Part shown: positions 48,925-52,266 of the stretch, piece by piece | Layout: the number at the start of each line of letters is the position of its first letter | Numbering within the stretch: the stretch's first letter is position 1 | Assembly (NCBI RefSeq): GCF_000743705.1 | Contig: NZ_JQEZ01000002.1 | Coordinates: 165,250-229,249 of the forward strand | Direction of reading: 5' to 3' | Source: Ruegeria halocynthiae | GTDB taxonomy: Bacteria; Pseudomonadota; Alphaproteobacteria; Rhodobacterales; Rhodobacteraceae | Length of the DNA stretch: 64,000 nucleotides | Program-made: the position numbers and the translations under genes | Notes under the pieces: model-generated | Told to the model about the DNA's origin: nothing | Seen by the model: the letters and a program-made list of their open reading frames with translations, nothing else | Databases searched by the model: none

Positions 48925-49033
48925 TTTGACGGGGTTGTGAGACACGGGCTCGTGAATTCAACTGTGCCGTCATAGCCATTAGGTTATTCACTGTCACAAA
49001 CAGACATACGCAGTCATCAAAAGGATTACCGAG

Positions 49034-49336
49034 ATGTCGAAAACAGCAAAATCCCTTGTTATCGCAAGCGCCGTCGCGGCCGCCGTTTCGGGCGCAGCTA
49101 CCACTGCCACCGCCCAAGCCAAAGAGAAATGCTATGGCGTTTCGCTTGCCGGTCAGAACGACTGTGCTGCAGGCCCAGGCACCACCTGCGCGGGCACCTC
49201 GACCGTGGACTATCAAGGCAACGCATGGACCCTGGTAGATGCCGGCACCTGCGCCGATATCGAATTGCCCAAATCGGCCGACGGTGCGGCCCGCAGTGGT
49301 TCGCTGGAACCGCAGGACCGCGACCTGCCCGCATAA
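49034..49336 (+). CDS. bufA: Bufferin-type RiPP metallophore precursor (DUF2282, BufA1 family)
   Basis: The 100-aa precursor has a signal peptide (residues 1-29, [20 protein letters not shown]...AQA), so the product is periplasmic. The core has four cysteines, Cys33, Cys44, Cys52 and Cys73, in '[18 protein letters not shown]', '[17 protein letters not shown]' and '[11 protein letters not shown]'. This is the family pattern. In characterised bufferins, cysteines are turned into thiooxazole-type rings by the neighbouring MNIO enzyme and the peptide binds copper. The tail after residue 78 is hydrophilic. A terminator-like hairpin separates it from bufB, consistent with the precursor being made in excess. 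Confidence 0.88.
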
Positions 49337-49360
49337 GGCAAAGTCAACGAAAGCATGAGG

Positions 49361-49390
49361 GGCGGGCAACAACGCCCGCCTCTTTGTTGT
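49361..49390 (+). terminator. Intra-operon terminator/attenuator between bufA and bufB
   Basis: GGCGGGC and GCCCGCC form a 7-bp stem, extendable through a wobble pair, around AACAAC, followed by TCTTTGTTGT. It probably lets most transcripts end after bufA. Confidence 0.65.
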
Positions 49391-49407
49391 GACCGGAGGA
49401 CTTGTAC

Positions 49408-50265
49408 ATGTTGGATAATGCACACAAATCGAACAGATTGCCCGCCGCGCCGGGCGTTGGTTACAAGCCTCAACATTTCGACCAGATTCTGAAACATGCC
49501 CATCCCGTGGCATGGCTTGAGATCCACGCAGAAAACTACATGGGTGATGGCGGTCGGCCGCTGGCCCAACTGCGACACCTGTCTGAACAATTCCCCATTT
49601 CGGTACACGGCGTCGGCCTGTCGATTGGTGCCGAAGGACCATTGGACCCGGATCATCTGGCGCGTCTGAAACATCTTGTCGGCTGGCTGAACCCGGCCAG
49701 CTTTTCCGAACATCTGGCGTGGTCAACCCATGACGGCCACTTTCTGAACGACTTGCTGCCCCTGCCCTACACCGATGCGACCCTGACGCGTATCTGCGAT
49801 CACATTGATCAGGTGCAAGAAACCGTTGGCCGCCAGATGCTGTTGGAAAACCCCTCCAGCTATCTGGCATTTGAAGAAAGCACCTGGTCCGAGCCTGACT
49901 TTCTGCGGGAAGCTTCTCGTCGTACGGGCTGCGGTCTGTTGCTGGACGTGAACAACGTCTTTGTGTCGGCAACCAATCTGGACTTCTCACCGCAAGGCTA
50001 TATCGACGCTTACCCGCTGGAAAAAGTCGGGGAAATTCACCTTGGCGGACATGATGAGGATGAGGACGACCACGGTCGCCCCCTGCTGATTGACAGCCAT
50101 GGGCGCGAAGTGGTCGATCCGGTCTGGGCTTTGCTGGACTATGTGCTGGAACGCTCAGGCCCCAAACCCGTTCTGGTCGAATGGGACACGGATGTTCCTG
50201 ACTGGCCCGTTCTTCGGGCCGAGGCGGACCGCGCACAAGCGGCGCTGGACCGCGTTCCGGCATGA
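49408..50265 (+). CDS. bufB: MNIO family bufferin-modifying enzyme (DUF692)
   Basis: The 285-aa TIM-barrel protein of the multinuclear non-haem iron oxidative enzyme family shows the metal-binding pattern '[14 protein letters not shown]', '[16 protein letters not shown]', '[24 protein letters not shown]', '[11 protein letters not shown]', '[14 protein letters not shown]', '[12 protein letters not shown]' and '[12 protein letters not shown]'. These His, Asp, Asn and Glu residues bind two or three irons. It would oxidise precursor cysteines with oxygen. The ATG at 49408 has GGAGG 8 bp upstream; a TTG at 49402 is too close to that site. It overlaps bufC by 4 bp. Confidence 0.93.
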
Positions 50266-51023
50266 GTGTTTCCCAAACCACGTTTCACGAGGCCTTGCTG
50301 GACCCATCAGCGGCGATTCCCGACGGGCTGCTTGACGCCAAGGCCCAGCCCGCCGGGCGGCGGTTCAGCGTGTACCGCAACAACGTTGCCGTTTCGCTGA
50401 CCGAAGCGATGCATCAGGCCTTCCCCGTCATCACGAAACTGCTTGGCACCAAGAATATGGATGGCCTTGCGGGGATTTTCCTGCGCAAACACCCGCCCTT
50501 GTCACCTTTGATGATGTTCTACGGCGAAGAATTCCCCGAATTTTTGGCCGGGATGGAGCAGCTTTCCCATCTGGGGTATCTGCCGGACATCGCCCGGCTG
50601 GAACTGGCACTACGCCGGTCCTATCACGCAGCTGACAGTCAGCCGGTTTCCGAAAACGCACTGGCCGTTTCCCCGGAAGATGTCATGCGCGCGCAACTAG
50701 GGTTTGCGCCTGCAATGCAGGTCTTACGTTCGGACTGGCCAATTTACTCTATCTGGCGCTTCAACACCGAAGAAGATGCCCCCAAACCGGAACCCGACGG
50801 TCAGGACGTGCTGATCACTCGACCGGATTACGACCCCCATCCACACTTGCTGCCTTTGGGTGGCGCAGATTGGATCGCCCGACTTCAGTCGGGGCAAACC
50901 ATCGGCGACGCGTATGAAAATACCGCCGCCGACTTCCCCGAGTTCGACCTTGGGGCCACTCTTGCGCTGCTTCTGCAGGGCGGCGCAATATCTTCTGTGA
51001 CTATCGAAAGGCTGGCACCATGA
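50262..51023 (+). CDS. bufC: Bufferin partner protein BufC (DUF2063)
   Basis: The 253-aa protein begins '[91 protein letters not shown]', the DUF2063 (HvfC/BufC) domain. The second half ('[15 protein letters not shown]', '[25 protein letters not shown]') is the family's variable recognition region. It forms a complex with the MNIO enzyme and presents the precursor. It is coupled to bufB and to the DoxX gene by ATGA overlaps. Confidence 0.9.
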
Positions 51024-51538
51024 CTGCCCTGATCTCTTTGCACAACAACACTTTGGGGAGGCTGGATCTGGCCTCTGGCTGGTTGACCCCGACACTGGCG
51101 CGGGTCGTGTTCATCGCGGTTTTGCTGTTCTATTTCTGGAATTCGGCGATGACGAAAATCGACGGCTCGATTTTCTCGCCCTCGGCTGGCGCCTTTGGTC
51201 AGATCTTTCCGAAAGCCGCCGAAGCTGCCCTGTATGACGTCACGCAGATGACCTTTTTCCAGCGTATCGTGATTTTCTTTGGCACCGTCGGTGAATTTGT
51301 CCTGCCCGCGCTGCTGCTGGTTGGTCTGTTCACGCGTCTGGCCGCATTGGGCATGATTGGGTTTATCTGGGTTCAGACCGCCACCGATGTTTCCGGGCAC
51401 GGCGTGAAACTTGGCAGCCTGTTCGACAACGCGATCTCGTTGATGGATCAACGCGTGATGTGGACCTTCCTGTTTCTTGTCATCATCATCAATGGCGCTG
51501 GTCCGATCTCGGCGGATCGTTTGCTGCGCTTAAAGTGA
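51020..51538 (+). CDS. DoxX family membrane protein of the bufferin operon
   Basis: The 172-aa protein has about four membrane helices ('TLARVVFIAVLLFYFWNSAMTKID', 'RIVIFFGTVGEFVLPALLLVGLFTRLAALGMIGFIWVQTATDV', 'VMWTFLFLVIIINGAGPISADRLL'). The 'NSAMTKI...GEFVLPALLLVGLFTRLAAL' pattern is DoxX. DoxX proteins commonly close bufferin and related MNIO operons and may supply reducing power or help export, which is inferred. Its start overlaps the bufC stop by 4 bp. Confidence 0.9.
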   Translation: MTALISLHNNTLGRLDLASGWLTPTLARVVFIAVLLFYFWNSAMTKIDGSIFSPSAGAFGQIFPKAAEAALYDVTQMTFFQRIVIFFGTVGEFVLPALLLVGLFTRLAALGMIGFIWVQTATDVSGHGVKLGSLFDNAISLMDQRVMWTFLFLVIIINGAGPISADRLLRLK

Positions 51539-51539
51539 T

Positions 51540-51908
51540 TTAGAAATGCGCCTTGGGCTCGTCCGGTTTCCCAGCGGCCAGCCCAAGGATACCCGCCACG
51601 GCGGCAAAGGCGACCGGGAACATCGTGAACGCATTAAACCCAAACGCATAATACATTCCCGCCGCAGACATCAGCAACAACACCCCGCCGATCAAAGCGC
51701 GCGCATGGGCCATCGCACCACCTGCGATGGCCAACAAAGGCGCAACAAGTGACGCCACCTGTATGACCTGAGCATTGTCGAACTGTTCGGCCACACCTTC
51801 GACCTCGCCAAAACGTTCGACCAACTCAATATAGCCGTATCCGAAAAAGCCCACGATCATGCCGATCAAACCGGCGATGACACCCAAAATCATTGCTGCG
51901 TTACGCAT
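51540..51908 (-). CDS. Small membrane protein of unknown function
   Basis: The 122-aa protein has four hydrophobic segments ('AAMILGVIAGLIGMIVGFFGYGYIEL', 'VIQVASLVAPLLAIAGGAMA', 'ALIGGVLLLMSAAGMYYAF', 'FPVAFAAVAGILGLAAG') with an acidic loop between the first two. It resembles DUF4064-like small membrane proteins. It is convergent with the DoxX gene, one base apart, so it is not part of the buf operon. Confidence 0.75.
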   Translation of the reverse strand: MRNAAMILGVIAGLIGMIVGFFGYGYIELVERFGEVEGVAEQFDNAQVIQVASLVAPLLAIAGGAMAHARALIGGVLLLMSAAGMYYAFGFNAFTMFPVAFAAVAGILGLAAGKPDEPKAHF

Positions 51909-51948: not shown

Positions 51949-52266
51949 TCATGCAACGCCAAGCCCCTTTCGCGATTCCGGGGTCCAGGCCAGAAACAGC
52001 TCTCCGTCCTTTTCGATCAGCGGGCGTTTCATCAAAGTCGGATGATCCCTGAGCAATTCCAGCCGGGGCCGCGCGCGTTCTTCTTCCGCCAACCCGCGCC
52101 AGGTTGTTGAGCGGGTATTGAGCAAAGCCTCGCCGAACCTCTCATGCGCCTGCGCCAAAACGGAATCGGGCACGCCTTGTGTCCGAACGTCGATGAATTC
52201 GGCATTTGGAAGCGATTTCAGTGCCTTGCGGCAGGTATCACAGGTTTTTAGTCCAAAAAGGCGCAT
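51949..52266 (-). CDS. ArsC/Spx-family thioredoxin-fold protein
   Basis: The 105-aa protein begins 'MRLFGLKTCDTCRKALKSLPN', with a CxxC redox-type motif at residues 9-12, and ends 'HPTLMKRPLIEKDGELFLAWTPE', the ArsC-family C-terminus (MKRPL). The short length fits the YffB/ArsC-like group rather than a genuine arsenate reductase. The function is not settled. It lies 40 bp downstream of the unknown membrane protein's start on the same strand. Confidence 0.82.
   Translation of the reverse strand: MRLFGLKTCDTCRKALKSLPNAEFIDVRTQGVPDSVLAQAHERFGEALLNTRSTTWRGLAEEERARPRLELLRDHPTLMKRPLIEKDGELFLAWTPESRKGLGVA

Follow-up and report, generated by a model that had tools for sequence, protein, structure and literature searches.

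A bufferin operon beside thrS in Ruegeria halocynthiae with a conserved CenR-like double box before its promoter

The operon and its products

The DNA analysed here, called the window, is a stretch of 64,000 nucleotides (nt) from contig NZ_JQEZ01000002.1 of Ruegeria halocynthiae, whose genome of 4.3 Mb is 99.96% complete. It carries four genes in the order bufA, bufB, bufC and doxX, all on the + strand, and their sequences support a Buf1 bufferin operon, every feature that can be tested in this way being in agreement. Upstream of bufA is a pair of boxes resembling the binding sites of the response regulator CenR, and the operon is predicted to be controlled by CenKR, an envelope two-component system. 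Bufferin clusters, their core genes and their chemistry have already been described (PMC12452194, PMC13097082); Buf1 peptides are modified at their two central cysteines, with a disulphide joining the outer pair (PMC12452194), and thiooxazole peptides are reported to absorb near 305 nm (PMC13097082).

The precursor gene bufA (49034..49336, +) encodes 100 amino acids and matches Pfam DUF2282 with 86.5 bits against a cut-off of 22.4; none of the NCBIfam bufferin models scored BufA above its cut-off. The four cysteines of the original prediction are present, at residues 33, 44, 52 and 73, whereas the glycine-rich spacers that it placed between them were not evident as any marked richness in glycine. 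By eye, the N-terminus has a positively charged start, a hydrophobic stretch, and small residues ahead of KEKC, which suggests a Sec signal peptide of approximately residues 1-29. Comparisons within the family Rhodobacteraceae were made on 84 loci, these being the 85 genomes with a DUF2282 match among 120 sampled, minus one in which the gene is at a contig edge (G098), and with the window representing its own genome. In all 84, the first bufA keeps four cysteines after residue 20. Two loci (L050 in G007 and L079 in G100) have bufA duplicated in tandem ahead of bufB, and these second copies were left unscored.

The maturase gene bufB (49408..50265, +) encodes 285 amino acids from the ATG at 49408, a TTG at 49402 also being in frame. 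The protein scores 346 bits against a cut-off of 25 for Pfam MbnB_TglH_ChrH, and 375.5 against 310 for the NCBIfam bufferin-maturase model MNIO_BufB, and its solved relatives are 3bww, TglH and MbnB. Eight residues, H67, H102, E147, D180, H211, D229, H231 and E258, are invariant across 23 BufB sequences and have the same residue types in 3bww; they are positions typical of the active site and would bind iron.

For BufC (bufC, 50262..51023, +; 253 amino acids), Pfam DUF2063 gave 82.7 bits against a cut-off of 27.2. No solved relative was found with the sequence alone, and a profile search gave only a weak match, to the TglI chain (E 0.13). The predicted structure, with a mean predicted local distance difference test score of 91.6, matches both TglI (8hi7, E 4.7e-7) and NGO1945 (3dee, E 4.8e-5), and gives BufC, a DUF2063 partner protein, a predicted RRE-like fold. 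The last gene, doxX (51020..51538, +), encodes a membrane protein of 172 amino acids, which at 22.0 bits falls just below the Pfam DoxX cut-off of 23.6; it was aligned with nine doxX genes in the same place in relatives.

The order and coordinates originally proposed for the four genes are correct, DoxX being the only one to fall under its Pfam cut-off. Their proposed coupling by ATGA holds at 50262 (bufB-bufC) and 51020 (bufC-doxX) and fails between bufA and bufB, which are separated by a gap of 71 nt containing a stable hairpin. The bufferin assignment itself is supported because the precursor family, the maturase model, the DUF2063 partner with its TglI/NGO1945 fold, DoxX and the gene order all fit. 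DUF2282 and MNIO have one match each in the genome, so that neither a further bufferin nor a further MNIO was found.

A double box before the promoter of bufA

Alignment of upstream sequences revealed a conserved element approximately 100 nt before bufA. It was scored with a matrix built from the 31 published CenR sites of R. sphaeroides, which have the form TGA-N8-TGA and mostly lie directly before the -35 (Lakey and others, PMC9275681); no bufferin sequence was included. The first box, TGACGGGGTTGTGAG (48927..48941, +), has the top score, 12.46, among the roughly 128,000 15-mers of the window, and the second-ranking 15-mer is on the reverse strand of its neighbour. This second box, ACACGGGCTCGTGAA (48942..48956, +), abuts the first, and scores 8.85 on this strand and 12.44 on the other, with an offset of one base. 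The scores of the pair add up to 21.3, and no other pair in the window exceeds 13.0. The motif T[CG]AC-N6-GTGA occurs only once in the window, counting both strands, and that is at box 1.

The boxes would precede a weak housekeeping-type promoter. The putative -35, TTCAAC (48957..48962, +), is the first six bases past box 2 and matches TTGACA at 3/6 positions, and after a spacer of 17 nt comes the putative -10, TAGGTT (48980..48985, +). The same arrangement was seen among the 80 closest named relatives by BufB, of which one (L190) had no usable start; these relatives partly overlap the family sample, as with L145 and G043, whose contigs are equal in length, and are independent neither of it nor of each other. 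Measured against 833 coding controls, the double box lay above their 99th percentile in 79/79, and a single box scored above 8.5 in 76/79. TTCAAC or a near form is the commonest sequence directly after box 2, and TAnnnT begins 22-25 bases past box 2 in 68/79 (49 at 23, 18 at 24 and 1 at 22), whereas 200 shuffles gave 5.4 on average and never more than 14. In 24 Ruegeria-like loci, the boxes are more conserved than their flanks, with majority-base frequencies of 0.96 and 0.79 respectively.

In the family the boxes go together with the position of the operon beside thrS. This gene, next to which the original prediction placed the operon, is upstream on the same strand in the window, and upstream within 1.3 kb in 54/84 family loci, a count from which contig edges may conceal some. 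The double box exceeded the same 99th percentile in 48/54 thrS-linked loci and 10/30 others, and the tandem pattern was found in 38/54 and 5/30 respectively, with 0/84 in each of 50 shuffles. Scored as a single box, 48/54 linked loci passed the 95th percentile set by coding controls and 44/54 the one set by shuffles; the corresponding count for the other loci was 15/30 by either percentile. The signal was destroyed by permuting the columns of the matrix: in 300 permuted matrices, the linked loci above the coding percentile numbered 3.9 on average and 14 of 54 at most, and only 2/300 placed the bufA promoter of the window first. We hold it near certain that this element and the promoter exist.

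The tandem form looks specific to bufA in this genome. A search with the double-box pattern, allowing up to 3 mismatches, returned, besides bufA, a single further place that differed at 3 positions (control, 1), and an exact shorter pattern found bufA only (control, 1), so that the double box was rejected as the signature of a wider regulon. The further place (L247, around 1500) lies inside an open reading frame (ORF) that starts like a secreted histidine-containing protein; the backward control gave 1, and the match is probably due to chance. Rfam gave no match over the whole window at gathering scores, and the idea that the leader holds a riboswitch or another known RNA was also rejected.

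Promoter types and the bufA-bufB gap across the family

The operon is common. Besides the 85/120 family genomes mentioned above, DUF2282 is present in 65/190 genomes sampled from the class, and at least 571 relatives of the BufB of the window were confirmed in a scan of genome contigs, so that the original prediction overrated the rarity of this operon. Among the matches listed, the closest named relatives of BufB are from Ruegeria strains, the best being 94% identical (R. lacuscaerulensis HKCCA6521). Since thrS is upstream in 54/84 loci, the site beside thrS is a feature of the family and is not peculiar to this genome. The doxX gene follows in 76/84 loci, comprising 53/54 of those linked to thrS and 23/30 of the others. 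In one locus (L064, about 2463-2763 when re-oriented) approximately 300 nt lie between bufB and bufC, compared to nearly none in most loci, and this stretch may hold an inserted small gene.

The Caulobacter bufferin operons are members of the sigma-F regulon, are held back by NrsF, and are induced by chromate, cadmium and copper (PMC3511200, PMC8224329). The control of the operon was left open in the original prediction, which named no factor. No match to NrsF was obtained in the genome of the window, the Caulobacter control genome being positive, though no search was made for sigma-F itself; and the sigma-F pattern GTAA[CT]-N17-CG[AT] does not occur in the 260 nt before bufA. A dedicated sigma-F promoter at this locus was rejected on these two grounds, and what was found upstream is the conserved double box.

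NrsF was detected in 17/120 family genomes, of which 14 have a bufA locus in the set of 84. All of these are among the loci not linked to thrS (14/30, against 0/54 of the linked ones), and in 12/14 NrsF is on the bufA contig, within about 3 kb. The 14 loci with NrsF have the sigma-F pattern in 10, a single box above 8.5 in 10, and the double box in 1. The 54 thrS-linked loci have the sigma-F pattern in 2, which is about what chance would give (1 in 84), and the double box in 48, while the 16 loci with neither NrsF nor a thrS link have the sigma-F pattern in 0 and the double box in 9. The motif T[CG]AC-N6-GTGA was found upstream in 31/54, 5/14 and 5/16 of the linked, NrsF-bearing and remaining loci respectively (shuffle means 0.3, 0.04 and 0.1).

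The single box in the NrsF-type loci has a characteristic position. Of the 13 that have a GTAA[CT], 10 have a best box that stops 4-5 bases short of this motif, two of these boxes scoring less than 8.5 (L032, 6.1; L108, 8.4). Given that most NrsF-type loci keep one box before the sigma-F promoter, the box seems to be older than the change of promoter, and its doubled form would accompany the loss of NrsF. Beyond the family, 29 upstream regions were available from the 65 class genomes with a match, one of which (L234) belongs to the family of the window. A CenR-like box above the 95th percentile of shuffles was present in 13/29, and only 2/8 sigma-F-type promoters had a box above 8.5 near the -35, with a gap of 3, on account of which a CenR-like box outside the family was rejected. 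Four loci from other families of the class (L211, L216, L222 and L223) have a near-palindromic TCAC-N6-GTGA 160-171 nt before bufA, and no sigma-F pattern.

The gap between bufA and bufB has a median length of 70 nt in the family. In the window, it contains a predicted hairpin (49357..49384, +) with arms at 49357-49367 and 49374-49384, and a z score of -3.5 for the gap. Most of the 84 loci have a predicted GC-rich stem, in differing sequences (mean z -2.6, with 53/84 below -2; 60 shuffles each), including one locus (L043) that was retained despite a miscalled bufB start giving a gap of 0. In 23 close relatives, the 11 pairs are mostly kept and 2 have a compensated change; this covariation is slight because the stem scarcely varies among them. 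The T run past the stem is poor (CTCTTTGTTG). We read the hairpin as a probable partial terminator or 3' stabiliser, which would leave more bufA than bufBC message. In L076 (G063), a second CenR-like double box, scoring 15.8, is found in the gap, past a strong hairpin that is followed by a T run; it looks as though bufBC had there gained its own copy of the promoter.

As the original prediction stated, no metal regulator is adjacent to the operon: the neighbouring ORFs scanned encode an alpha/beta hydrolase, ThrS, a weakly DUF4064-like protein, an ArsC-family protein, a cold-shock protein, ThyX and a glyoxalase. The DUF4064-like one (51540-51908, -) is a membrane-like ORF of 122 amino acids directly past doxX, which scored 15.4 bits against a cut-off of 32.1. 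The ArsC-family protein (51949-52266, -) is under the cut-offs of both the NCBIfam reductase and Spx-type models.

The regulator, its rivals and known systems

The placement of the boxes before the -35, and their co-direction with the gene, match the published CenR sites (PMC9275681). Among the 13 Trans_reg_C loci of the genome that were scanned, L123 encodes a regulator of 228 amino acids with D11-13, D51 and D56, as described for CenR of R. sphaeroides. It carries ACACGAGGGCGTGAG 86 nt before its start, which scores 9.3 and is identical at 14/15 positions to the published R. sphaeroides cenR site. From its length, these aspartates and its own upstream site, L123 is identified as the probable CenR orthologue. 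Box 2 agrees with the published cenR site at 12/15 positions, and with the site before L123 at 11/15. The msrA gene is a CenR target in R. sphaeroides (PMC9275681), and the two MsrA genes here have sites of 10.9 at -81 and of 11.1 at -33, the latter in upstream sequence that is possibly coding. In S. meliloti, the srlA promoter has AGTCAC-N6-GTGACT adjoining the -35; the promoter requires CenK-CenR, and is less active when this repeat is mutated (PMC9561847). Taken together, these likenesses suggest that CenR is the protein that binds the double box, which we hold to be probable.

Several observations weigh against this interpretation. Of four known CenR targets examined in this genome, two lack a good site: the putative orthologues of tolQ and of the CAP gene, both CenR targets in R. 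sphaeroides, have best upstream scores of 6.1 and 6.8, both under 8.5. Table 1 of the CenR paper lists no bufferin gene, which would count if R. sphaeroides has the operon, and the available text mentions neither copper nor DUF692 (PMC9275681); nor is there a bufferin in the available text of the second CenKR paper (PMC10470753). The double box falls below the bound in 6/54 thrS-linked loci. Single scores of about 12 arise by chance in 64 kb, and must thus be common genome-wide; a lone box being without significance on this scale, what carries weight is that the boxes are paired, conserved and set at this place. The consensus promoter scan did not list the proposed -35 and -10, as expected of a weak promoter that would depend on an activator. 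A scan for terminator-like hits gave 4 compared to 3.5 in shuffles, which is no excess. Finally, other regulators of the OmpR family may bind similar repeats, and the genome has 13 matches to Trans_reg_C, 12 of them above the family cut-off.

This last point leads to the possibility that the double box is real and is bound by another OmpR-family regulator, such as ChvI or a metal-sensing two-component system encoded at another site, bufferin then answering directly to metal. Proteins of this family favour such repeats (PMC9275681), the S. meliloti chvI promoter has a related one (PMC9561847), and the absence of a site before tolQ and CAP would be in keeping with it. We nevertheless regard it as rather unlikely, given that the matrix is derived from chromatin immunoprecipitation sequencing sites of CenR and loses its signal on column permutation, and that the regulator with CenR's aspartates carries a near copy of the published cenR site. 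A related question is which metal, if any, the peptide serves. It may be directed to another metal or to general envelope or oxidative stress, with copper incidental here: operons of this kind answer to chromate and cadmium in Caulobacter (PMC3511200, PMC8224329) and to gold in Cupriavidus (PMC12452194), the CenR-like promoter points to the state of the envelope, and no metal regulator is adjacent. The bufferins characterised to date, by contrast, bind copper and help cells to grow under copper stress (PMC12452194), and the sigma-F regulon is required for copper tolerance in Caulobacter (PMC3511200, PMC8224329), which makes copper as an incidental ligand an unlikely proposition.

Two other readings concern transcription itself. 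If the hairpin were a full terminator, bufBC-doxX would have its own promoter; the stem, which is stable here and in most relatives, and the double box between bufA and bufB in L076 speak for such an arrangement. Yet the T run is poor, terminators are not in excess, and a convincing double box in the gap is confined to L076 among the 84 loci (L062 scores 11.2), so that we find this improbable. It is more improbable still, to the point where we give it hardly any credence, that the operon is driven by a sigma-F-type extracytoplasmic function (ECF) sigma factor without NrsF. The dependence of the Caulobacter bufferin operons on sigma-F (PMC3511200, PMC8224329), and the sigma-F promoter in 10/14 NrsF-bearing genomes, speak for it; against it, no search having been made for the sigma factor itself, are the NrsF and sigma-F pattern results given above for the window and the thrS-linked loci, and the presence of a TAnnnT -10 at a fixed distance instead.

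The best explanation of the whole, and one that we consider likely, is a Buf1 operon with a CenR-activated promoter of the housekeeping type. By analogy with the published family, BufA would be made with a signal peptide; BufB, an iron oxidase, would be guided by BufC to convert the central Cys44 and Cys52 to thiooxazoles, and Cys33 and Cys73 would form a disulphide; the mature peptide would then be exported to buffer periplasmic copper. DoxX would have some role in the membrane. With sigma-F/NrsF lost, transcription of the operon would start at a weak promoter of the housekeeping type, which phosphorylated CenR would activate by binding head to tail on the two boxes just before the -35, in such a way that bufferin output follows the envelope state sensed by CenK, and the hairpin past bufA may keep bufA mRNA above bufBC. 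Extended to the Roseobacter group and the family, the proposal is that bufferin synthesis is a limb of CenKR, in which a single box before a sigma-F -35 became two before a housekeeping promoter on the loss of sigma-F/NrsF, copper buffering being tuned by the state of the envelope and not by a metal-stress sigma factor. We think this wider proposal somewhat favoured by the comparisons. If the promoter has been read correctly, the factor in control of the operon would be named for many marine bacteria at once. A recently recognised class of metal-binding peptides would then be tied to a two-component system, one whose regulator R. sphaeroides and Caulobacter cannot do without, and there would be a clear case of a stress operon in which a response regulator has taken over from an ECF sigma factor. 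In the literature searched, no paper was found that links CenR with bufferin, or bufferins with Roseobacter.

Among known systems, the Buf1 operon of Caulobacter vibrioides (CC3254-CC3257) has the same four families in the same order and a secreted precursor with four cysteines. There, sigF-nrsF is adjacent and the promoter is of the sigma-F type, whereas in the genome of the window NrsF was not found, thrS is adjacent, and the CenR-like double box precedes a promoter of the housekeeping type. The captophorins (fontiphorin, oxazolin and gonophorin) share the MNIO enzyme with a DUF2063 partner, the conversion of cysteine to 5-thiooxazole, and copper (PMC13097082), but their precursors carry EGKCG repeats, while that of the window belongs to the DUF2282 group. 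MbnBC and TglHI share the fold families of the enzyme and its partner, and differ in precursors and products, with low identity. On the side of control, the CenKR regulon of R. sphaeroides resembles the bufA promoter of the window in the sequence of the box, its co-direction and its place directly before the -35; the targets in its Table 1 are mainly envelope genes, with no bufferin gene, and the window has two adjacent boxes. The srlA promoter of S. meliloti is similar in having a TCAC-N6-GTGA repeat beside the -35 and in needing CenK-CenR, but has one inverted repeat and an unrelated target gene. The gene set of the Ruegeria operon is ordinary and already described; what sets the operon apart from the sigma-F type on record is its control region.

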